From a virus, in IMG/VR virus record IMGVR_UViG_3300044635_001663, positions 62,001-126,000 of that record: DNA of 64,000 nucleotides. One strand, given 5' to 3'. The notes beneath the pieces were generated by a model, which worked only from the letters and a program-made list of their open reading frames with translations, was not told where the DNA came from and did no database searches. Below, in pieces: positions 49,483 through 60,325 of this stretch (position 1 is its first letter; every line of letters starts with the position of its first letter). A program made the translations under genes and the position numbers.

Positions 49483-50949
49483 ATGTCAAAAGAACAAATG
49501 ATACTCTGCGATCCATCCGCAGAAAGAGCCGTATTAGCGATTCTGTGCCAATATGGTCGAGAATATTACTATGAAGTAGCCGATATCTTGTCGGAGGAAA
49601 CATTTTATATAGACAGCAATATAGTTCTGTATAAATGTATTAAGAATGTTTTTGAAAAGCAGGAAGTACAAAAACTAGACATAGCATCAATATACTCTGC
49701 TGCTAAGAGTCTAGATTTGGACTTTATCTTAAATAAAAAAGAAGAAACTCAGCATCTAAAAGCTATACTAGATTTTCCAGTTAATGCTGCAAATCTTAAT
49801 TCTTTTACTAGTAAAATTACTAAACTGTCCATTGCTCGTAAGCTTTATAAAAAGCTTGACGAAGTAAAGAAGGGCTTATTAGACGTAAATGGGTCGGAAT
49901 CTATATCAAAAATTCTAGGTATAGCCGAAGACCCTATTCTCGGTTTTGCTTCATCTCTTAGCGATGGAGATAATAGGCCGGAACTAATTCATCAAAATAT
50001 TGATGATTATATGGATAATCTGAAAAACAATCCTATAGATCAGGTTGGTATATCCACAGGTTTTCCTGCATATGACTTTGCTATTGGTGGAGGTTTGCGT
50101 CGTAGCACCATTAATGTTATCGCTGCAAGACCTAAGACAGGAAAAACATTATTGTCAGATAATATGGGTAGAAATATTGCTAAACTAGGTATACCAGTTT
50201 TAAACATGGATACCGAAATGACAAAAAATGACCATATTCATAGATTACTAGCAATGATGACGGAAATAGATATATCAAAAATCGAAACAGGAAAATTTAA
50301 TGAATCTCCAAACCTAAATACAAAAATAGAAAAAGCTATCTCTGAACTTAAAAGTACTCCAATCTATCACAAGTCTATTGCTGGGAAATCTTTCGATGAG
50401 CAAATGAGTATTATGAGAAGATGGATTGTTCAAGAGGTCGGACTGAATGACGATGGGTCTGCCAAGCCGTGTGTCATATTTTATGATTATCTGAAACTAA
50501 TGGATACTCAGGGCATGTCTCAGGATATGAAAGAATATCAGGTTTTGGGATTCATGATGACATCTCTGCATAATTTTGCTACCAAATATCAGATTCCTAT
50601 TGTAGCTTTTGTTCAGTTAAATAGGGATGGTATTACGAAAGAAAGCACGGATACCGCGAGCGGATCAGATCGTATTATCTGGTTATGTAGTAATTTTACT
50701 ATCTTCAAGCGGAAATCTGAAGAAGAGATGGCGGAAGATGGTCCCGATAATGGTAATAGGAAATTATTGCCACTAGTGAGTAGGCACGGAGGAGGATTGG
50801 ACGATAACGATTACATTAATTGTTATATGAAGGGATGGTGTGCAAAAATTACAGAAGGTAAAACAAGATTGGAGTTAGTCAATGGAAACGGCAGCAACGA
50901 TGGATTCACCATACAAGAATCAAACTCAGAAGAAATTCCGTTCAATTGA
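49483..50949 (+). CDS. dnaB: DnaB-type replicative helicase
   Basis: The 488-residue product has an N-terminal helical domain (SAERAVLAILCQYGREYYYE) and a RecA-type domain: GISTGFPAYDFAIGGGLRRS, INVIAARPKTGKTLLSDNMG (Walker A at about residue 220), VLNMDTEMTKNDHIHRLLAM (H2), VIFYDYLKLMD (H3/Walker B), YQIPIVAFVQLNRDG (H4) and a late Arg region. It unwinds DNA ahead of the phage polymerase. The primase gene starts 68 bases before its end, an unusual overlap that should couple the two. Confidence 0.9.
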   Translation: MSKEQMILCDPSAERAVLAILCQYGREYYYEVADILSEETFYIDSNIVLYKCIKNVFEKQEVQKLDIASIYSAAKSLDLDFILNKKEETQHLKAILDFPVNAANLNSFTSKITKLSIARKLYKKLDEVKKGLLDVNGSESISKILGIAEDPILGFASSLSDGDNRPELIHQNIDDYMDNLKNNPIDQVGISTGFPAYDFAIGGGLRRSTINVIAARPKTGKTLLSDNMGRNIAKLGIPVLNMDTEMTKNDHIHRLLAMMTEIDISKIETGKFNESPNLNTKIEKAISELKSTPIYHKSIAGKSFDEQMSIMRRWIVQEVGLNDDGSAKPCVIFYDYLKLMDTQGMSQDMKEYQVLGFMMTSLHNFATKYQIPIVAFVQLNRDGITKESTDTASGSDRIIWLCSNFTIFKRKSEEEMAEDGPDNGNRKLLPLVSRHGGGLDDNDYINCYMKGWCAKITEGKTRLELVNGNGSNDGFTIQESNSEEIPFN

Positions 50950-52054
50950 TCAGCAGCAACTCAAAGTAATTTGTGATGCTGCCTGTGATAAAATTACGGA
51001 CCTATTTCATTATTTTAATTTAGAGTATCGTGAGAACTCTAAGTTTTATAGTATGTGTTGTCCTATTCATAAGGGAGACAACCCGTCTGCTCTAAATATA
51101 TATCATATAGGAGATTCTTATAGAGGTAACTGGAAATGCAGAACTCATCAATGTGAAAAAATATTCAAAGGGTCTATTATTGGATTTATTAGAGGTATTA
51201 TATCTCAACAAAAATATGATTGGCAAGAAGAAGGGGATGATATAGCTTCGTTTAATGAAGCATTAGAATTTATACAAAAATTTGTCAACATAGATGCTGC
51301 TCATCTTTCTGTCGATCCTACTGTCAAAGATAAAAATATGTTCGTGGCTAATATGTCTATTGTTAGCAAAACATCAAAAAATACATCACATCAATATCCA
51401 ACTAGAGAATCTGTAAGAAATCTCTTAAATATTCCTAGTCCATATTTTTTACAAAGAGGATTTTCAGGTGAAATTTTAGACAAATATGATGTGGGAGACT
51501 GTACTGTTGTTGGAAAAGAAATGAATAATAGAGCAGTGGTTCCTATTTATGATACGACACATCAACATATGGTTGGGTGCTCTGGAAGAAGCGTATGCGA
51601 CAAATGCGACTCATGCGGAGGACACCACAATGCCGATATAAAGTGTGAAATAGGTAGGACATTCAGTAAATGGAGACATAGCAAGGGGTTTGCTACACAA
51701 ACTTCATTATATAATTTATGGTATGCTAAAGAATATGTTCAAAAAACAGGCTCTATTATCATAGTGGAGAGTCCTGGTAATGTTTGGAAATTAGAAATGG
51801 CTGGAATTCATAATGCTGTTGCTATTTATGGATCTTCGATGACAGATAAACAAAAAATGTTATTGGATATTTCTGGTGCTATGAATATATATTTATTATT
51901 GGATAACGACGAAGCCGGACATAGCGGCAGAAAAGTAATAGAAAGTAAATGTCATAAAACATATAATATATATAATATACATATCGATACAAACGACGTA
52001 GCCGATATGAGTGTGGAACAAATTCAGGAAGTTATAGGAAAACAAATACAATGA
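50882..52054 (+). CDS. DnaG-type primase
   Basis: The 390-residue product has a CHC2-type zinc module (CCPIHKGDNPSALNIY..., then NWKCRTHQCEK) at about residues 52-85, and a TOPRIM core: IIIVESPGNVWKLEMAGIHN (VESP..., Glu), then NIYLLLDNDEAGHSGRK with the DxD pair. It makes RNA primers and should pair with the DnaB-like helicase. The ATG used here is preceded by GGAG inside the helicase gene. The C-terminal helicase-binding domain of bacterial DnaG is not obvious. Confidence 0.82.
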   Translation: METAATMDSPYKNQTQKKFRSIDQQQLKVICDAACDKITDLFHYFNLEYRENSKFYSMCCPIHKGDNPSALNIYHIGDSYRGNWKCRTHQCEKIFKGSIIGFIRGIISQQKYDWQEEGDDIASFNEALEFIQKFVNIDAAHLSVDPTVKDKNMFVANMSIVSKTSKNTSHQYPTRESVRNLLNIPSPYFLQRGFSGEILDKYDVGDCTVVGKEMNNRAVVPIYDTTHQHMVGCSGRSVCDKCDSCGGHHNADIKCEIGRTFSKWRHSKGFATQTSLYNLWYAKEYVQKTGSIIIVESPGNVWKLEMAGIHNAVAIYGSSMTDKQKMLLDISGAMNIYLLLDNDEAGHSGRKVIESKCHKTYNIYNIHIDTNDVADMSVEQIQEVIGKQIQ

Positions 52055-52785
52055 CAAAAATTATAGGTTTTTCAGGTAAAAAACAATCTGGCAAAAGCAG
52101 CTGTGCTAATTTTTTATACGCTAATTTTTTAGCAAATACGAATGCCTTTACTAAGGTAATTATGAATAACTTCGGACAAATAGAAGTTATTAAACCAGAT
52201 AATTCTCAACATATTGTTGACGTATTTGATTATTATCATCTTCGACCAAATATTGATACTTATATTTTAGATGTTATACAAAAATTGTCTGGATCAATTA
52301 AAGTCTATAGTTTTGCAGATATTCTGAAAAAACAAATATGTATCGACATACTAGGATTAACATACGAACAGTGTTACGGCACAGATGAACAAAAAAATAC
52401 AACGACCGATATGAGCTTAGACGGTCAGTCTCTAACAGCTAGAGAAGTTATGCAAATTGTCGGCACAGACTTTTTTAGAAAAATCAAAGTAGATATTTGG
52501 CCAGAATCAACAATAAGAAAAATTTTAATGGACCAACCACAAATTGCTCTTATTAACGACTGTAGATTTCCTAATGAAGTAGCTGCAATCAAAAATCATA
52601 ATGGCTGTGTTATCAGGCTAACAAGAAATATTTATGGAGATGACTCATCTCATGAATCAGAAAATATTTTGAATCAAGATAGATACGATTGGAATAATTT
52701 TAATTATATATTGGATAATAGTAATCTAGATATACTTCAACAGTCAGAACAATTATTTCCAATTTTTATAGAAAACATAAAATGA
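52051..52785 (+). CDS. Deoxynucleoside monophosphate kinase
   Basis: The 244-residue product opens with KIIGFSGKKQSGKSSCANFL (P-loop), has SFADILKKQICIDILGLTYE, TAREVMQIVGTDFFRKI and a C-terminal IALINDCRFPNEVAAIKNHN and GCVIRLTR, the pattern of phage dNMP kinases (T4 gp1-like). It phosphorylates dNMPs to dNDPs. It overlaps both neighbouring genes by four bases. Confidence 0.85.
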   Translation: MTKIIGFSGKKQSGKSSCANFLYANFLANTNAFTKVIMNNFGQIEVIKPDNSQHIVDVFDYYHLRPNIDTYILDVIQKLSGSIKVYSFADILKKQICIDILGLTYEQCYGTDEQKNTTTDMSLDGQSLTAREVMQIVGTDFFRKIKVDIWPESTIRKILMDQPQIALINDCRFPNEVAAIKNHNGCVIRLTRNIYGDDSSHESENILNQDRYDWNNFNYILDNSNLDILQQSEQLFPIFIENIK

Positions 52786-53822
52786 TTATTACTTATTTTC
52801 GTAGTTCATCTTTTAATGCTCACTCTATGTGTGAGCAACAATATTTTGGAGAATATGTATTAGGATGGAGAGGTCTTTCAGGTAAAAAAGCAGACAAGGG
52901 AACAATTGTACATAAAATTTTAGAGATTCTGGCTTTTATTAAAAAAGCAGAACAAAATAACCAGATCACTATTGTAGATGATGTTGTTGGAGAATTAGAT
53001 GTTAATAACTACGATTTAGATACTATTATTGAACAGGTATATGATTATTATACAAACACAAACCAACATCATAAATGGATGCCAGTAGATAAAAAGGATT
53101 GTCGAGAATGGGTATATAAAACCTTAAATTATAATAATGGGATGTTTGATCCTAGAAAAAGACATATAGTTGAAGCAGAACAGCACTTTGATTTTGAAAT
53201 AAAAAAACCATGGAGCAAATACAGTTTTACTATAGACGATCAAGAAATATCCGGTCATTTGGCACTAAAAGGTACTATTGATCTTATAACTAAGGTAAAT
53301 GATAATACATTAGAAATTATAGACTGGAAAACAGGTAAAAGATTAAATTGGGCTACTGGTAAAACTAAAGAACAAGAAGACTTAGAAAAAGATCCACAAT
53401 TAAGAATTTATCATTATGCTTTAACTCGCTTATATCCAGAAATTGATCATGTAATAGTTTCTATTAATTTTATTAACGATGGTGGGGCTTTCTCTATTTG
53501 TTTTGATAAAAAGGACTTAATAGCGACAGAAGACATGTTGAGACAAAAATTTGAAATCATAAAAAAATCAAAGAAGCCAAAATTGACAAAATCGTGGATG
53601 TGTAGTAAGCTGTGTCATTTGGGAAAAACCACGTTCGAAAATACCGCAGTCCCCCCACTTGTTGAATACAGAGATGGTCAAATATCTCCTAAAGATAAGT
53701 ATATGACTAAATGTGAACAAATCAAACACGATATTGAATTATATGATATTCAATTTGTTACACAGCAGTATAAACATCCTAATCATAATTTTGGCTTTTA
53801 TAAACCACCGGGACAAACATGA
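52782..53822 (+). CDS. RecB/Cas4-like PD-(D/E)XK exonuclease
   Basis: The 346-residue product has SSSFNAHSMCEQQYFGEYVL (Q.....Y near the start), a GTIVHKILE with the H motif (about residue 42), the catalytic LALKGTIDLITKVNDNTLEI then IDWKTGKRLNW (D...E.K motif at about residues 165-190), QLRIYHYALTRLYPEID (Q..Y) and Cys late in the chain (WMCSKLC) that could bind a cluster. It is likely a 5' or 3' end-processing nuclease for recombination. It overlaps the polymerase gene by four bases. Confidence 0.78.
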   Translation: MIITYFRSSSFNAHSMCEQQYFGEYVLGWRGLSGKKADKGTIVHKILEILAFIKKAEQNNQITIVDDVVGELDVNNYDLDTIIEQVYDYYTNTNQHHKWMPVDKKDCREWVYKTLNYNNGMFDPRKRHIVEAEQHFDFEIKKPWSKYSFTIDDQEISGHLALKGTIDLITKVNDNTLEIIDWKTGKRLNWATGKTKEQEDLEKDPQLRIYHYALTRLYPEIDHVIVSINFINDGGAFSICFDKKDLIATEDMLRQKFEIIKKSKKPKLTKSWMCSKLCHLGKTTFENTAVPPLVEYRDGQISPKDKYMTKCEQIKHDIELYDIQFVTQQYKHPNHNFGFYKPPGQT

Positions 53823-55693
53823 AAACATATATTCCTCTACATGTACACAGTCATTATTCCTTACTTGATGGTTTGTCAAAACCTGATCAAATAGCGGATA
53901 GGTGTGCAGAAATAGGTGTTGATACTTGTGCAATCACTGATCACGGGACTATATCCGGTACTGTAAAGTTTCACAGCATAATGAAAAAGAAGGGCATTAA
54001 ACCTATTCTTGGTTGTGAATTATATATTTGTGATCAATCTCCATCTACTAAAACCCCAGAAAACAGATCTTTAGCTCATTTATTAGTATTGGCAAAAAAC
54101 TATCAAGGATGGAAAACCCTAATAAAAATAGTTTCTGAATCAAACAATCCTGATTATTATTACTATAAACCTAGATTAGATATTCAAACATTAGGATCTC
54201 TGTTAGACGGTAATCTTATAGGCATATCTGGACACCTAGGATCGACTGTAGCAGATTGTATTGTTCGTGACGACAAAATAAAAGATGATTGGGAAACAGG
54301 GGCCATAAAACATATTGATCTATTACAGAATGCCTTTGGAAAAGATAATTTTTTCCTAGAAACACAATTAATGGATTCTCAGAATCTATTAATACAAAAA
54401 CATCTCACAGATTGTGTTAGAAAAATAGCTCGTCAAAAAAATATTAAAGCAATTTGTACACCCGATGCTCACTACTGTAGAAAAGAAGATGCTGTTGACC
54501 AAAGGATTCTGTTGTGCAATAATTTAAAAACTACGTTACCAGCTATAAATACAAAAATTCTAAATAAAGACGATGTCCCTATGGGCACCTTCTTTCTTTC
54601 TGATAATTATCATATATTAGATCATCAAGAAATGTCTGCTTTACATTTTGAAGAAGAATTAGACAATACTCACTATATAAATAGTTTATGCGAAAACTAT
54701 GATATAGTACACAAGCCAACTTTACCAGATTTTAAATGTCCAAACCAAATATCTGAAGACGAGTATCTTAGAGAATTATGTAGGCATGGATGGAAAAATA
54801 AAAATCTCAATAGTCTGGAAGATAATGTCAAAAATAATTATGTTGATCGTATAAAATACGAATTAGAGGTTCTACAGGGGGCTGGTCTGTCGAGTTATTT
54901 TCTTATCGTACAGGATATAGTTAATCATGTAAAACAAAATGACTGGCTTCCCGGCCCAGGAAGAGGAAGTGCGGCTGGATGTCTAGTATCATATTTAATA
55001 GGCATCACTAGTATAGATCCTATGCAATATGGACTACTGTTTGATAGATTTTATAATGCTGGTCGAAATACTAAAGATCATATTTCTATGCCAGATATTG
55101 ATATTGACGTACCTATCAACAAGAGAGAAGAAATTATTCAATATATTAAAAATCAGTATGGTTCTAGCAAAGTGTCTCAAATGATTACTTTTAATACTAT
55201 GAAAGGCAGAGGAGCTTTAAAAGACGTATTAAGAGTTTATGGTAATATTAGTTTTGATGAAATGAATATGATTACTAAAAATATACCAGATGAAGCAAAA
55301 ATTGCGGACGAACTACAAGAAATGAAAGACGAGTATGGGGAATCTTCGATTATTCGTTGGGCATTAGAAAATAATTCAGAAGGTCTTGAGCAGTGGTGCA
55401 AGATCGACGATGAAGGAAACTTGTCTGGCCCTCTGGCGAAGCGTTTCGAGCAGGCTATTAGGCTGGAAGGGACCAAAACCAACCAATCTAAACATGCGGC
55501 TGGTATCGCTATCAGTTCACAGGCTCTTGCCGAACTCTGTCCTATGGTTTATGATAGTAGGAACGAACAGACCATAGCCGGTATGGAGATGCAAGACCTA
55601 GAAAGTTTAGGTATTGTAAAATTCGATATTCTAGGTATCGCTATGCTAGATAAGATTATGTGCATAAAAGATTTATTATCTCATCAGGTCTGA
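53819..55693 (+). CDS. dnaE: DNA polymerase III alpha subunit, N-terminal part (PHP + palm)
   Basis: The 624-residue product holds the PHP domain with intact metal motifs (HVHSHYSLLDG, AITDHGT, GCELYI, PDAHY) and the polymerase palm. GPGRGSAAGCLVSYLIGIT is the PPGRGS-type phosphate loop; MPDIDIDVPINKREEIIQYI carries the first two catalytic Asp; SLGIVKFDILGIAMLD carries the third (E. coli KFDFLGL). It ends 17 residues after that motif (KIMCIKDLLSHQV), where the full enzyme would go on into the fingers. The fingers, beta-binding and OB parts are in the gene at 56579. No intein-like end is seen. Confidence 0.9.
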   Translation: MKTYIPLHVHSHYSLLDGLSKPDQIADRCAEIGVDTCAITDHGTISGTVKFHSIMKKKGIKPILGCELYICDQSPSTKTPENRSLAHLLVLAKNYQGWKTLIKIVSESNNPDYYYYKPRLDIQTLGSLLDGNLIGISGHLGSTVADCIVRDDKIKDDWETGAIKHIDLLQNAFGKDNFFLETQLMDSQNLLIQKHLTDCVRKIARQKNIKAICTPDAHYCRKEDAVDQRILLCNNLKTTLPAINTKILNKDDVPMGTFFLSDNYHILDHQEMSALHFEEELDNTHYINSLCENYDIVHKPTLPDFKCPNQISEDEYLRELCRHGWKNKNLNSLEDNVKNNYVDRIKYELEVLQGAGLSSYFLIVQDIVNHVKQNDWLPGPGRGSAAGCLVSYLIGITSIDPMQYGLLFDRFYNAGRNTKDHISMPDIDIDVPINKREEIIQYIKNQYGSSKVSQMITFNTMKGRGALKDVLRVYGNISFDEMNMITKNIPDEAKIADELQEMKDEYGESSIIRWALENNSEGLEQWCKIDDEGNLSGPLAKRFEQAIRLEGTKTNQSKHAAGIAISSQALAELCPMVYDSRNEQTIAGMEMQDLESLGIVKFDILGIAMLDKIMCIKDLLSHQV

Positions 55694-55717
55694 TTCCAAA
55701 AAGAAAGGGTTCTAAAT

Positions 55718-55897
55718 ATGTTAGAAAAACAGTTTATTGATATTGAGGTAAATTCTGTATTCGTATTAGATGATTTAGAATATACAAAGATAGGAGAAGA
55801 AAGACTTAGTTGTTGCAAGGTGCTTAATGCCATTCGTAACGACACCAAAGAAAAAGTCATGATTCTTCCATTACAGCGAGTAAAGGTTTCAGCATGA
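55718..55897 (+). CDS. Small protein between the two polymerase genes
   Basis: A 59-residue frame preceded by AAAGGG, running to a TGA that overlaps the exonuclease ATG. It reads FIDIEVNSVFVLDDLEYTKI then RLSCCKVLNAIRND, and looks like the small beta-barrel proteins found in many phages (FVL.D.EY.KI....C.KV...). Function is unknown. It may ride along with the exonuclease in the insertion. Confidence 0.6.
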   Translation: MLEKQFIDIEVNSVFVLDDLEYTKIGEERLSCCKVLNAIRNDTKEKVMILPLQRVKVSA

Positions 55898-56586
55898 AAT
55901 TTAGTAACAAAATATGTATCTTTGATCTAGAAACAGACGGAGTGAATCCTAATGTTTGTAGTGCAGTACAAATAGCTGCTGTGATAGTGGATCCAATAAA
56001 ATTAGAAATAGTTAAGGATTCCGAATTTAATATAATGCTTAAGCCAGAAAGCTTAGAACTCAATCCTAATCACGAATATGATAATGATATTCTAAATTTT
56101 CATGCCAAAGTTAGGAATTGTTCCAGAGATGATATTTTATGTTCGTGGAAAGAAGCTATGCCACAAAAACAAGCATGGTCCTTATTCTGTGGATATTTAG
56201 ATAAGTATCATTCGAGAACTAGTAAGAAAAATGAATTTTCTGCTCCTATAGCTTCTGGATATAATATCAACAGATTTGATCTAAAAATAGTTAATCGTAT
56301 GGCTCAAAAATTTAATACAGTCAATAAAGAAAACGATAGTAATATTTTTTACCCACGAGACGTAATAGATATTATGAATCTATTATATTATTGGTTTATG
56401 TATTTAGAAGATGTCAAATCAATATCATTAGATAATGTTAGAGATTATTTTTCTATATCTAAAGATAATGCTCACGACGCTCTAAAAGATGTAAAAGATT
56501 GTGCTGATATCTTACTTAGATTTTTAAAGTTACATAAGAATTTATCACAAAAAATTAAATTTAAGGGTGCCTTTGGAGATGTTTGA
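55894..56586 (+). CDS. DEDDh 3'-5' exonuclease, DnaQ-like
   Basis: All four acidic residues and the His are visible in 230 residues. KICIFDLETDGVNPNVCSAV has D.E (motif I), ASGYNINRFDLKIVNR (motif II), and DNAHDALKDVKDCADILLRF has the H...D of motif III. This is the proofreading-type fold. It lies between the two halves of the polymerase, so it may be the epsilon-type partner. Its last codons overlap the start of the C-terminal polymerase gene by eight bases. Confidence 0.85.
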   Translation: MKFSNKICIFDLETDGVNPNVCSAVQIAAVIVDPIKLEIVKDSEFNIMLKPESLELNPNHEYDNDILNFHAKVRNCSRDDILCSWKEAMPQKQAWSLFCGYLDKYHSRTSKKNEFSAPIASGYNINRFDLKIVNRMAQKFNTVNKENDSNIFYPRDVIDIMNLLYYWFMYLEDVKSISLDNVRDYFSISKDNAHDALKDVKDCADILLRFLKLHKNLSQKIKFKGAFGDV

Positions 56587-58129
56587 AGCAGATATATCTA
56601 AAATTGATTTGGCTTGTTCCAAAACCTGGAATTTAATATCAAATGGAAATACTAAGGGGTGTTTTCAGTTGGAGTCCAGGCTAGGAAGGTCTTTGGCTAA
56701 AAAACTAAAACCATCAAATATAGAAGAATTAGCTGCACTAATTTCTATTATGCGACCAGGATGTTTGGAGGCATATAGAGACGGAAAAAGCGTAACCAGT
56801 CACTATATCGACAAAAAGAATGGTGTCGAAGATATCGATTATTTTCATGAGTGTTTGGAGCCTATTCTGAATACTACATATGGTGAAATGGTATATCAGG
56901 AACAAGCTATGCAAATAGCTAAAGATATTGCTGGTTTCGATTTGCAAGAAGCAGACAATTTGCGTAAAGCTATTGGTAAAAAGAAACCAGAAGAAATGGC
57001 AAAACTTAAAATCAAATTTATAGACGGTTGTGCTAATAGAAAATTATTAAATGCAGAACAAGCTGATCAGGTTTTCGGATGGATCGAAAAAAGTCAAAGA
57101 TATTCTTTTAATAAATCGCACGCTATTAGTTATGCTATGAATTGTTACTTATCAGCATATGCTAAAGCTCACTATCCTGTTTATTTTTTTACGGCTTACC
57201 TAAGATTTGCCAAAGATAAAATAGATCCTCAACAAGAAATTAAAGAACTGGTACAAAATGCTATAGAGATGGGAATTAGTATATGTAATCCAGATGTAAG
57301 AATGCTAAACGATCTTATAGAACTTAAAAACCAACATATATATTTCGGACTAACAGATATTAAAGGTTTTGGTCAATCAGCATTTAAAAAACTAAAACAC
57401 CTAATACATACAGACAATCTAGATCTTGCTAAATTAAAATGGACAGAATTTTTGATAGATGTTTTGTATGAATTGAATTCCACAGCTAGTAAAGCACTAA
57501 TTCAATCCGGAGCATTGGATTATTTGAAGTTACACAGAAACAAAATGCTGTTGGATTACAGTATGTTATTAGAATTAACACCCAAAGAGGTCGCTCTACT
57601 TAAGAGTATATCTTTGAACACAGATGATCTATATACTAGTCTGTGTCAATTAAAAGAAAAAATAACTTTGAATAAACGTAAAGAAATAGTCAATAATTTA
57701 TGTAAAACAATGAAAAATCCTCCATTTTCCATTGAAGACTCTATAGAATGGCTTGTTGATACTGAGAACATGTTGTTGGGTTATTCTATCTCCTGTTCTA
57801 AAATAGACATGTATGATATTCACATGGTAAGTCATTCTTGTAGAGACATTAAGCATAATAAATGCAGCAACAATAATTTGATGGTGGCCGGTGAGATAGA
57901 GAATATCAATATAGTCAAAACAAAGAAGGGCAAAAATGCTGGAGCCGAGATGGCTTTTCTATCCATAAATGATGGTACTGCCTGTTTGGATTCTGTGGTA
58001 TATTTTCCAGAAACTTTTAGACAATACCGTAACCAATTATTTGAAGGTAATATTATTATCATCAAGGGCAATATATCTAAAAATAAGGATTCGTTTGTTG
58101 CTGAAAAGACGTTTTTAGCAAAAACTTGA
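56579..58129 (+). CDS. dnaE: DNA polymerase III alpha subunit, C-terminal part (fingers, beta-binding, OB)
   Basis: I use the ATG ten bases after AAGGG; an in-frame GTG lies 12 bases upstream. The 516-residue product picks up where the gene at 53819 stops: TKGCFQLESRLGRSLAKKLK, LISIMRPGCLEAYRDGK, LNTTYGEMVYQEQAMQIAKD, AIGKKKPEEMAKLKIKF and RYSFNKSHAISYAMNCYLSA are fingers and following motifs. It ends with an OB-like domain (LMVAGEIENINIVKTKKG). Summed length (about 1140) equals E. coli alpha, so nothing has been lost. The product should bind the N-terminal part to form an active enzyme. Confidence 0.9.
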   Translation: MFEADISKIDLACSKTWNLISNGNTKGCFQLESRLGRSLAKKLKPSNIEELAALISIMRPGCLEAYRDGKSVTSHYIDKKNGVEDIDYFHECLEPILNTTYGEMVYQEQAMQIAKDIAGFDLQEADNLRKAIGKKKPEEMAKLKIKFIDGCANRKLLNAEQADQVFGWIEKSQRYSFNKSHAISYAMNCYLSAYAKAHYPVYFFTAYLRFAKDKIDPQQEIKELVQNAIEMGISICNPDVRMLNDLIELKNQHIYFGLTDIKGFGQSAFKKLKHLIHTDNLDLAKLKWTEFLIDVLYELNSTASKALIQSGALDYLKLHRNKMLLDYSMLLELTPKEVALLKSISLNTDDLYTSLCQLKEKITLNKRKEIVNNLCKTMKNPPFSIEDSIEWLVDTENMLLGYSISCSKIDMYDIHMVSHSCRDIKHNKCSNNNLMVAGEIENINIVKTKKGKNAGAEMAFLSINDGTACLDSVVYFPETFRQYRNQLFEGNIIIIKGNISKNKDSFVAEKTFLAKT

Positions 58130-58154
58130 CATGCTGGTACACCACCAATACTAT
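58126..58154 (+). promoter_or_regulatory. Candidate sigma-70-type promoter of ssb
   Basis: TTGACA with TACTAT after a 17-base spacer (a TATACT three bases further would give 20). It overlaps the stop of the polymerase gene and lies about 50 bases before the ssb start. The element resembles the one before the helicase gene (AACTTGACA). Confidence 0.55.
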
Positions 58155-58201
58155 ACTGTGCGTTTGCGTGATTTTTAACTTTTTACAAAGGAAATTTGAA
58201 T

Positions 58202-58570
58202 ATGAATATTGTATTACTTAGAGGTAATCTAACTCGTGATCCTGAGATTAGGAAAATCGAAGGCAGATCAAAGCCTGTGTCTGTGGTAAATTTCACCATT
58301 GCTGTATCTCGTGAATATACCAAGGCTTCTGGCGAAAAGGATAAGATTACCACTTTTGTTAATTGCGAAGCTTGGGATTCTGGAGCAGAGATTATAGCGG
58401 AATCCTTTAGGAAGGGTGACTTGGTAATGGTAGAAGGATCTCTTAGAAATGACTCGTGGGAAAAGGATGGGGTCAAGCATAGTACTCTACGTATTAGAGT
58501 AAACAACTTTTCTAAGATCACCAAGCTGTCTAAGTCTCAGTCAGTTGATACAGAGGCTGTGGCTTTCTAA
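58202..58570 (+). CDS. ssb: Single-stranded DNA-binding protein
   Basis: I use the ATG nine bases after AAAGGA; a TTG two codons upstream is in frame. The 122-residue product has the OB fold of bacterial SSB: NIVLLRGNLTRDPEIRK, VVNFTIAVSREYTKASGEKD, TFVNCEAWDSGAEIIAESFR and GDLVMVEGSLRNDSWEKDG. The C-terminal region is short and ends DTEAVAF, lacking the acidic DDDIPF-type tail that recruits partners. It has its own promoter and terminator, so it is probably highly expressed. Confidence 0.93.
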   Translation: MNIVLLRGNLTRDPEIRKIEGRSKPVSVVNFTIAVSREYTKASGEKDKITTFVNCEAWDSGAEIIAESFRKGDLVMVEGSLRNDSWEKDGVKHSTLRIRVNNFSKITKLSKSQSVDTEAVAF

Positions 58571-58597
58571 GTTATCCCATAAACAGATTTAAAGATG

Positions 58598-58630
58598 GGG
58601 CTGTTGAAAAAAGACAGCCCTATTTTTATA
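58598..58630 (+). terminator. Rho-independent terminator after ssb
   Basis: GGGCTGT pairs with ACAGCCC (7 bp, perfect) around a 9-base loop, followed by TATTTTTATA. It separates the replication block from the second glycan cluster, and it argues against the longer start of the next gene, which would lie inside it. Confidence 0.85.
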
Positions 58631-58645
58631 AACACACAAATTTTC

Positions 58646-60325
58646 ATGACTAATCAAAAACATAAAACTAGAATTTTAGTATGTTCAGAATCATCTAAAG
58701 TTTCTTCAGGCTTTGGAACATACAATAAAGCCTTGCTAAAAGGATTATTTGAAAGCAATAAATATGAAATTGCTGAGTTTGCTTCATATGGATTAATAGG
58801 GGATAAAGAAAAGTTTAATATCCCATGGAAGTACTATCCAAATGCGATAGAAAAAGATGATAAAAGAGAACAGTTATATAATAGCTCTCCCGAAAACCAA
58901 TTCGGCAAATGGCGTTTTGATAGAGTTGTTTTAGATTTTAAGCCGGAAATAGTTATAGACATTAGAGATTATTGGATGTCTGCGTATCAGAGGTTTTCTC
59001 CTTTACGCAAATATTTTCATTGGATTCTTATGCCAACCATAGATTCATTTCCTCAAAAAGAGGAATGGCTAGATACTTATATCAATGCTAATGCTGTATT
59101 TACATATAGTGACTGGGGAGCAGAAGTCCTAAAACAGCAAACAAGTAATAAGATTAAATATATATCAACAGCATCTCCAGCAGCTAATGCCTCAAGTTAT
59201 CAGCAGGTTTCACTAGCTCAAAAACAAGAAATAAAGGGTTCATTAGCTCTATCAAAAGACAATATCGTCATTGGTACTGTAATGAGAAACCAAAAGAGAA
59301 AACTTTTCCCTGAATTAATCCAAGCTTTCGAAGCGTTAGTTGATCGTTTGCGTAATGAACAATCAGAAAAAAGCAATCAAATTATATTATATTTGCACAC
59401 AAGTTATCCCGATGCTGGATGGGATATGTTTGAGTTAATCAAGAATAGTAAGGTTTCAAATAAAATATACTTTACATATTGGTGCAGAAGCTGCAACGCT
59501 ATTTTTGCATCAAATTTAGCTGGCTTTACACAAAAATGCTATAAGTGTAAACAAAAGTCTGCCATAATACCGAATGTTGGAAACGCTATAGGAGAAGCGG
59601 CATTAGGTAAAATAATGTCAATATTCGATGTATATGTTCAATATTCTATCTGTGAAGGCTTTGGTATGCCCCAGGTTGAGGCAAGCTACTGTGGGGTTCC
59701 TGTTTTAACCGTAAATTATAGCGCAATGGAGGACATGATTAAAAAAATCAATGCCCAACCCATTAAGCTCGGATTAAAATTCAAAGAATTGGAAACAGGG
59801 GCTATCAGAGTATATCCAGATAAAGATGATACTGTAGATAAATTATATTCTTTGATCCATAAACCTCAGAATATATTAGCTAAAATAGGTTTTACTAATA
59901 AAAATTTAGCAACCAATGAGTACTCCTGGCAGGATACTGTTCAGAAGTGGATGGATTATATAGACACTGTTGATACGGATTACTATCGTAGTCGATGGGA
60001 AAATATGTCTTATCAACAAATTCCAACTATAAATATTAATCCAGAAATAAGAGATAAAACAGTTTATGAACAAATTTATAGTCTACATAATCAATTTAAA
60101 TCAACAGGACTAGATATGTCTACCTATTGGTTATTAAAAAACATATATTTTGCACAAAACTCAATGCTGTACGACGGAGCGTCTGTTGTGTCGTACTCTA
60201 TTAATAATATTATCAAAGATATCAATAGTATTATTACTAACTATAATAATGTAGAATATGCTAGATGTAATCCGTCATTGTTAACTAGTGAAGATTTTAT
60301 AGATTATGCAAACAAAACAACCTAA
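58646..60325 (+). CDS. GT4-type glycosyltransferase with inserted zinc ribbon
   Basis: I use the ATG after the terminator (MTNQKHKTRIL). The 559-residue protein is GT-B: ILVCSESSKVSSGFGTYNKA at the start, NIVIGTVMRNQKRKLFPELI (donor-domain start) and YSICEGFGMPQVEASYCGVP (E-x7-E signature). Between these, at about residues 280-305, lies WCRSCNAIF then CYKCKQKSA, a CxxC...CxxC zinc ribbon that is not part of the usual GT4 fold. A C-terminal extension of about 120 residues follows. The next gene starts inside its last codons. Confidence 0.75.
   Translation: MTNQKHKTRILVCSESSKVSSGFGTYNKALLKGLFESNKYEIAEFASYGLIGDKEKFNIPWKYYPNAIEKDDKREQLYNSSPENQFGKWRFDRVVLDFKPEIVIDIRDYWMSAYQRFSPLRKYFHWILMPTIDSFPQKEEWLDTYINANAVFTYSDWGAEVLKQQTSNKIKYISTASPAANASSYQQVSLAQKQEIKGSLALSKDNIVIGTVMRNQKRKLFPELIQAFEALVDRLRNEQSEKSNQIILYLHTSYPDAGWDMFELIKNSKVSNKIYFTYWCRSCNAIFASNLAGFTQKCYKCKQKSAIIPNVGNAIGEAALGKIMSIFDVYVQYSICEGFGMPQVEASYCGVPVLTVNYSAMEDMIKKINAQPIKLGLKFKELETGAIRVYPDKDDTVDKLYSLIHKPQNILAKIGFTNKNLATNEYSWQDTVQKWMDYIDTVDTDYYRSRWENMSYQQIPTININPEIRDKTVYEQIYSLHNQFKSTGLDMSTYWLLKNIYFAQNSMLYDGASVVSYSINNIIKDINSIITNYNNVEYARCNPSLLTSEDFIDYANKTT

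Follow-up and report, generated by a model that had tools for sequence, protein, structure and literature searches.

A probable two-chain DnaE-type polymerase in uncultured large-genome phages, divided between palm and fingers and with a DEDDh exonuclease gene in the seam

Can a replicative polymerase be made as two separate chains, one carrying the palm and the other the fingers, and what is the part of an exonuclease gene that lies between them? These questions are raised by positions 53819-58129 of the window, by which we mean the whole stretch of 64,000 nucleotides (nt) analysed here, itself part of a 126,336-base virus record. A first-pass annotation, made from the letters of the window alone, had read the locus as a DNA polymerase III (Pol III) alpha subunit divided over two genes, here called p1 and p2, and had suggested, as the likely meaning, a polymerase of two chains whose proofreading partner is encoded between them. 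The four genes concerned are as follows.

53819..55693, + strand: p1, Pol III alpha N-terminal chain (PHP, palm, thumb), 624 amino acids (aa)
55718..55897, + strand: o59, a 59-aa open reading frame (ORF) with a conserved Cys-Cys motif
55894..56586, + strand: DEDDh 3'-5' exonuclease (DnaQ-like), 230 aa; PF00929, E 4.9e-9, and phrog_192, E 9.2e-19
56579..58129, + strand: p2, Pol III alpha C-terminal chain (fingers, HHH, OB), 516 aa from the ATG at 56579

Profile searches bore out what had been read into the two polymerase genes. p1 matches PF02811 (PHP) and PF07733 above their cut-offs, the latter with E 1.5e-73 and over the full profile, and all three catalytic aspartates that had been placed in the first gene are present, as D426 and D428 (PDIDID) and D603 (KFDILG). 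p2, described as running from the fingers to the OB domain, matches PF17657 (fingers), PF14579 and PF01336 above cut-off. PHP, fingers, HHH and OB are thus all present, as families above cut-off and as folds, which places the pair in the DnaE type. The p2 ORF as listed starts at the GTG at 56567; we preferred the ATG at 56579 because homology to most relatives begins there and because it gives the commonest overlap with the exonuclease gene (8 nt, in 56/130 distinct loci). With this start the gap between p1 and p2 is 885 nt and is filled by the exonuclease gene and o59, as had been stated. The exonuclease start overlaps the o59 stop by 4 nt (55894/55897), and the p2 start overlaps the exonuclease stop by 8 nt (56579/56586).

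Judged by profile coverage, almost nothing is lost where the two genes part: p1 covers positions 1-572 and p2 580-1022 of TIGR00594 (1022 positions), and the two cover 42-614 and 623-1072 of phrog_405. The AlphaFold2 model of p1 (pLDDT 90.6) aligns over residues 1-624 with 7-608 of DnaE1 of Mycobacterium tuberculosis (Mtb; 5lew, Z 41.5), and the model of p2 (pLDDT 86.9, below 50 at residues 61-86) aligns over 1-512 with 610-1099 of Mtb DnaE1 (7pu7, Z 20.3). Together the models also tile the solved polymerases of Taq (5-639 / 640-1125) and E. coli (3-576 / 583-1074); as the root-mean-square deviation of the p2 matches reaches 10 Å in some rows, it is the aligned ranges, not the superposition, that carry the tiling argument. 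In its model p1 terminates with a helix after the KFDILG strand, one helix past the third catalytic Asp, and p2 begins where the fingers begin. The claim that the parts sum to the length of a normal alpha subunit stood as to the sum (624 + 516 = 1140 aa) and failed as to completeness: the end of p2 corresponds to E. coli 1074, Taq 1125 and Mtb 1099, and the C-terminal (tau-binding) domain after OB is missing. The first-pass annotation had missed this absence, together with the active-type PHP metal site and the differently split phage DnaE polymerases described below.

The same arrangement, which had been proposed for checking in related phages, recurs throughout the relatives. These were collected in scans that each kept at most the best 80 loci (of 228 and then of 398 p2 candidates, and of at least 559 exonuclease candidates), and one further scan gave 12 loci; L-numbers denote loci and G-numbers records of 105-233 kb. 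p1, the exonuclease and p2 are all contained in 253 of the 256 loci examined, the other three being incomplete. Their order is p1-exonuclease-p2 in 130/130 distinct loci, the window's included, and p1 and p2 are never found in one ORF. Loci retrieved through the exonuclease necessarily contain it; among the 160 retrieved through p2, 159 have all three parts, and L156 starts 893 nt before p2. A separate grouping key gave 140 distinct loci, with both parts in the same order in 138/138. Proteins 100% identical to those of the window are present in three other IMG/VR records (L002, L003 and L082, the p2 of L082 being cut at the contig end), and these copies, together with the order kept in all distinct loci, indicate that the split is not an assembly slip in one record.

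Catalytic residues are invariant among these relatives down to about 46-50% pairwise identity. The catalytic aspartates are kept in 117/117 p1 rows (of 130, with 6 interrupted rows and 7 with a stop in the extracted frame left out), and eight inspected positions of p2 are kept in 124/124 (of 130, leaving out frames that contain a stop or run off a contig end). Chance or a broken gene was rejected as the origin of the arrangement on the strength of this invariance and of the constant order. The exonuclease stop overlaps the p2 start in 104/130 distinct loci (56 with 8 nt and 37 with 4 nt in common), and the two are within 25 nt of each other in 129/130, the exception being L049, with two extra ORFs. 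Pairwise identities of p1, p2 and the exonuclease correlate (r 0.885, 0.819 and 0.833; the maximum of 500 permutations was 0.173). o59, which has no family match in Pfam, PHROG or NCBIfam profile searches, was detected in 119/130 distinct loci, and L110 and L193 leave no room for it, their exonuclease frame starting directly at the stop of p1; o59 therefore looks dispensable, whereas the exonuclease does not. The Cys-Cys motif of o59 is kept in all 14 aligned rows, the rest of the protein being variable. An N-terminal extension of p2 with a C-G-C motif is found in 100/130 distinct loci and is absent from the window, and a Cys before TW is invariant in 124/124 p2 rows; the two might form a zinc knuckle at the new N-terminus of p2.

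No intein had been noticed in either gene, and no intein model of Pfam or NCBIfam matches p1 or p2 of the window. As controls, the N-half of a split intein in L044 was found (TIGR01445), as was the intein of L060 (PF14890 and TIGR01443). Only 16-27 residues follow the last catalytic motif (KxDxLG) of p1 (124/130 measured), which leaves no space for an N-intein, and because the N-half control was detected, an N-intein at the seam would be expected to show. An intein at the seam of the window was accordingly rejected for want of a model match, with a C-half missed in L044 as a reservation. RNA splicing signals and an uninterrupted alpha gene elsewhere in the genome had also been named as observations that would speak against two chains. 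No Rfam intron was found in 53000-59000 at E up to 1 beyond a sole chance-level match (RAGATH-27, E 0.76), and none reached gathering score in L021, L029, L044, L049, L060 or KLEB27-3; taken alone, this negative is weak evidence against introns. The window's record contains no fused or intact alpha elsewhere, having a single palm site and a single fingers site. Across 44 records (105-233 kb, the window's included) there is likewise one PF07733 and one PF17657 site each, save in G010, where the palm lies in two intein-split pieces, and G023, where it is broken by stops. DNA_pol_B and DNA_pol_A were found in 0/44 records, with controls positive in 5 and 10 of 14 known genomes.

Among the best 80 loci kept from each scan, no close phage relative with an unsplit gene turned up. 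L262 (genome_contigs) is a bacterial dnaE in one piece. Among the top p1 matches opened, MT836213, MT835501 and MT835604, deposited as 'Bacteriophage sp.', hold a whole dnaE beside phosphofructokinase (read from the ORFs), and judged from their neighbouring ORFs they look like bacterial chromosome contigs.

Taken together, the order kept in all 130 distinct loci, the searches that returned no intein, intron or fused copy, and the models that tile DnaE make it very likely that the locus encodes, as first proposed, a replicative polymerase of the DnaE (C-family) kind, composed non-covalently of two chains and belonging to a lineage of uncultured phages with large genomes. p1 and p2 would associate without a covalent bond and so rebuild the polymerase, and the predicted complex would have polymerase activity. 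Translational coupling of the exonuclease and p2 would keep their amounts matched.

The DEDDh site of the exonuclease is intact: D11, E13, D129, H194 and D199 are invariant in 130/130. It ends 31 residues after D199 with a tail, K-x-K-F-x-x-S/A-F, in which K220 is kept in 123/130, F223 in 130/130 and F227 in 128/130. This tail is a candidate docking motif, although it partly overlaps the ribosome-binding region of p2 and some of its conservation may serve that function. The best-fitting PHROG of the exonuclease is named 'DNA polymerase exonuclease subunit', and the solved sequences matching its profile are a PolC exonuclease, an exodeoxyribonuclease and exonuclease I, none of them close.

A second possible proofreading site lies in p1 itself. 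The PHP pattern HHDHEHHDH is present in 92/117 rows, the window's protein (as L003) included; it has the form HHDHEH[C/H]DH that an excerpt of PMC12926913 gives as the 'active' exonuclease motif, and in Mtb DnaE1 nine residues hold three zinc ions, according to a passage of PMC5636811. Of the 25 deviating rows, 18 have a p1 5' end that is interrupted, mis-started or unread (X), and the other seven have lost the site. The PHP domain thus looks active in most members, and both PHP and DEDDh may proofread. Six of the seven rows without the PHP site are in the p2 tree (FastTree, local support only, 124 rows), where they form one clade, and their exonuclease site is intact. That the DEDDh site is never lost while the PHP site sometimes is favours the exonuclease as the constant proofreader. 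Of the proofreading partner proposed in the first-pass annotation, then, the invariant active site and the fixed place stand, and the role itself we infer, with a fair degree of confidence: the exonuclease would join the complex as an epsilon-like subunit, possibly through its KxKFxxSF tail, and with an active-type PHP in most members there would perhaps be two proofreading sites.

The exonuclease could instead be a mere neighbour of a real two-chain polymerase, serving recombination or the turnover of host DNA or RNA, with the zinc-type PHP of p1 as the proofreader. DEDDh exonucleases have many other roles, this one has no close solved match to its profile, and the PHP pattern is of the active kind in most rows; on the other side stand its presence in the seam of every distinct locus, an active site that stays invariant even where the PHP ligands are lost, and the name of its best PHROG, and we regard this explanation as possible but unlikely. 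We are more doubtful of an obligate three-part replicase in which the exonuclease links the palm chain structurally to the fingers chain. The cut would then have become fixed since the proofreader can dock at the palm-fingers seam and sense the primer end directly; PolC and epsilon represent two ways in which a DEDDh proofreader is attached to a C-family polymerase, and such a link would add a third.

Explanations that restore one chain, or that deny the gene a function, have far less in their favour. Some unrecognised activity, by protein splicing or ligation, might join the halves once they are translated: a cryptic system would be beyond the reach of sequence, inteins of both the split and the cis kind are found in these genes in relatives, and one C-intein half at least (that of L044) escapes the models. 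As neither p1 nor p2 of the window matches an intein and the p1 tail has 16-27 residues, such joining is very improbable. An intron spliced from the mRNA, or an 885-nt ribosomal bypass, would also give one chain. Introns are known in phage polymerase genes and bypassing is known in T4 gene 60 (PMC5009743, in the excerpted text), but no Rfam intron was found, the p1 stop is normal, the gap carries a conserved ORF, that of the exonuclease, with its stop overlapping the ATG of p2, and in L021 and L049 further genes lie in the gap; we give this removal of the gap very little credence. A broken or misassembled gene in a phage that relies on the host polymerase would fit the disrupted p1 or p2 of a few relatives (L128, L209), yet the cut is common to 130 distinct loci with invariant catalytic residues, and identical proteins occur in three other records, so that we attach next to no probability to it.

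Several observations weigh against the preferred reading, in which the polymerase has two chains and the exonuclease proofreads for it. One half of the L044 split intein, the C-half, escaped the intein models, and the control is valid for N-halves only. The 44 records, which have no stated completeness, may be fragments, and a second polymerase beyond a fragment is possible. More distant, perhaps unsplit, relatives lie outside the best 80 of 398 and of at least 559 candidates. The association of p1 with p2 and with the exonuclease is something that we infer; the beta clamp family PF02768 was not found in 14 records, which leaves a clamp-mediated link unsupported. Epsilon of E. coli binds PHP through a long C-terminal tail, and the exonuclease is without this alpha-binding tail. 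The loss of the PHP site in seven rows belongs here, as does the interruption of p1 in a number of relatives. In L128/G023 (a record of 194,787 bases) p1 carries many stops, among them all three stop codons, whereas the frames of p2 and the exonuclease are open, and in L209/G033 p2 lies in two frames, the p2 frame of G033 being 348 aa. The p1 genes of L103 and of L219 also lie in two frames. Decay, sequencing error or inserts may have caused the disruptions in L128, L209, L103 and L219.

The split probably arose by invasion of the polymerase gene by homing elements, and in relatives such elements still occupy five places within the polymerase or next to it. As read from the sequence, L044 and L071 have a split intein in p1 between GPGRG and S, its halves separated by an endonuclease-like ORF that stands on its own (the 'fractured gene' layout; L044:1993-5082), and p1 of L112 ends in an N-half similar to theirs. 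An in-frame intein lies in p2 of L060 between RPG and C (L060:6001-8268; read from the sequence, with splicing-domain matches), and p2 of L213, 763 aa long, has an insert whose start is similar to that of L060. In L029, L150 (L150:3351-4453), L227 and L260, p1 is broken before SMPDIDVD, with a LAGLIDADG ORF in L029; the break is probably an intron. No Rfam match was found in L029. In the part of the seam between p1 and o59, L021 (2130-2813) and L024 (4383-5066) carry a 227-aa ORF for which Pfam gives only a weak helix-turn-helix match; by reading it is homing-like, and it may show the origin of the split.

A further place is the 5' end of p1, which is interrupted right after PLHVHS in 25/130 distinct loci, the window not among them (interrupted loci include L009, L051, L057, L062, L071, L081, L089, L107, L119, L150, L159, L161, L218, L237, L248 and L259). 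The interruption consists of 4-8 extra nt beginning with a stop codon, after which p1 resumes, in any frame, at (S/A/T)-(H/M)-(Y/F)-SLLDG. The codons preceding the stop are GTC CAT TCN in 25/25, and GTC is found there in 2/96 intact loci (9 loci were unclassified). The cause is to be read from a pair of loci 93-96% identical, L106 (intact) and L107 (interrupted; L107:2378-3360 against L106:3211-3360): judged from this alignment, it is an insert carrying its own copy of the 5' coding stretch. The insert of L107, about 830 nt, holds a 240-aa ORF that ends over the new start and a fresh 5' coding copy, followed by TGAGTG. In some of the interrupted loci the interruption is linked to a mobile ORF of this kind, with its own 5' coding copy. 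By eye the 240-aa ORF looks like an HNH homing gene, and no supporting family was found for it in Pfam or NCBIfam. On the p2 tree the interruption requires 16 changes (24/124 rows interrupted) and hence looks mobile. The remaining PHP motifs are intact in 25/25 interrupted loci, a sign that the HxH segment may continue to be made. Within 7 nt after the stop, 15/25 have an in-frame ATG or GTG; of the other 10, nine have a TCN serine codon just ahead of the resumed frame, like the codon before the stop. Expression by reinitiation (in the 15) or by a short bypass like that of T4 gene 60, the precedent described in the excerpt of PMC5009743, is possible.

In the window, p1 to p2 form part of a longer operon-like run in the order helicase - Toprim - deoxynucleotide monophosphate kinase - PD-(D/E)XK - p1 - o59 - exonuclease - p2 - single-strand DNA binding protein (SSB). 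The other members are:

49483..50949, + strand: DnaB-type helicase
50882..52054, + strand: Toprim (primase-like) protein
52051..52785, + strand: deoxynucleotide monophosphate kinase
52782..53822, + strand: PD-(D/E)XK nuclease, directly upstream of p1
58196..58570, + strand: SSB, directly downstream of p2

The p1 start overlaps the stop of the PD-(D/E)XK nuclease gene by 4 nt (53819/53822), and a relative of the SSB was detected in 123/130 distinct loci. L259-L261 are members of the lineage inside bacterial metagenome-assembled genomes (two Bacteroidota and one Alphaproteobacteria), a weak hint at the host.

This uncultured phage lineage, which has many members, appears to have p1 and p2 as its only replicative polymerase. 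Should both chains act as a single enzyme, they would be a natural split replicase with which communication between palm and fingers can be probed, and the recruitment of a DEDDh proofreader could be tested directly on them. The genes are also a hot spot of homing elements, among them inteins, a split intein and endonuclease-like ORFs of the LAGLIDADG and other kinds, and so show how an essential gene can become permanently divided.

Division of a C-family polymerase is not in itself new. In cyanobacteria DnaE is encoded by two genes whose products are rejoined by protein trans-splicing through a split intein; alpha comes from two genes in both cases, and the window differs in having no intein match. 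In PolC of Gram-positive bacteria the DEDDh exonuclease is an in-frame domain inside PHP (structures 3f2b and 9qpc). The likeness to our locus is that a DEDDh exonuclease lies within the coding span of a C-family alpha, whereas in the window PHP is uninterrupted and the exonuclease has an ORF of its own between palm and fingers. Four cultured phages, which are those opened among the listed matches (1354 phage records match p1), likewise have a DnaE-like polymerase in two neighbouring ORFs, three of the four with an ORF between, but each is cut at a different place from the window: NarutoRun gp56/57 and Onyinye gp82/84 after PHP, Jayan CDS0041/0043 between MP and DID, and KLEB27-3 gp166/164 at FQIE, with an HNH gene between. 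The interruptions in Jayan and KLEB27-3 may be introns. In the unsplit and differently split polymerases compared, the palm-fingers boundary stays in one chain.

Jumbo phages of group 2.2 encode a split minimal Pol III alpha in the form of two separate proteins that are presumed to come together again (Iyer et al. 2021, PMC7824862), and in this respect they resemble the window. According to the excerpted text of that paper, however, theirs is a minimal core without other Pol III domains, the genes are far apart and a family B polymerase is present, whereas the lineage of the window has everything from PHP to OB in adjacent genes, an exonuclease in the seam and Pol B in 0/44 records. In T4, topoisomerase genes 39 and 60 were split by a homing endonuclease (PMC5009743, as excerpted), which is similar in that a phage replication enzyme became two-chain with homing elements as the likely agent; the enzyme is a different one, and the seam of the window is without a homing gene, the homing-like ORF being that of L021 and L024. 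We found no description of a palm-fingers cut with a DEDDh gene in the seam in the open-access literature searched. Split C-family polymerases are thus already known, and what is new here is a cut between palm and fingers with a DEDDh exonuclease gene in the seam.

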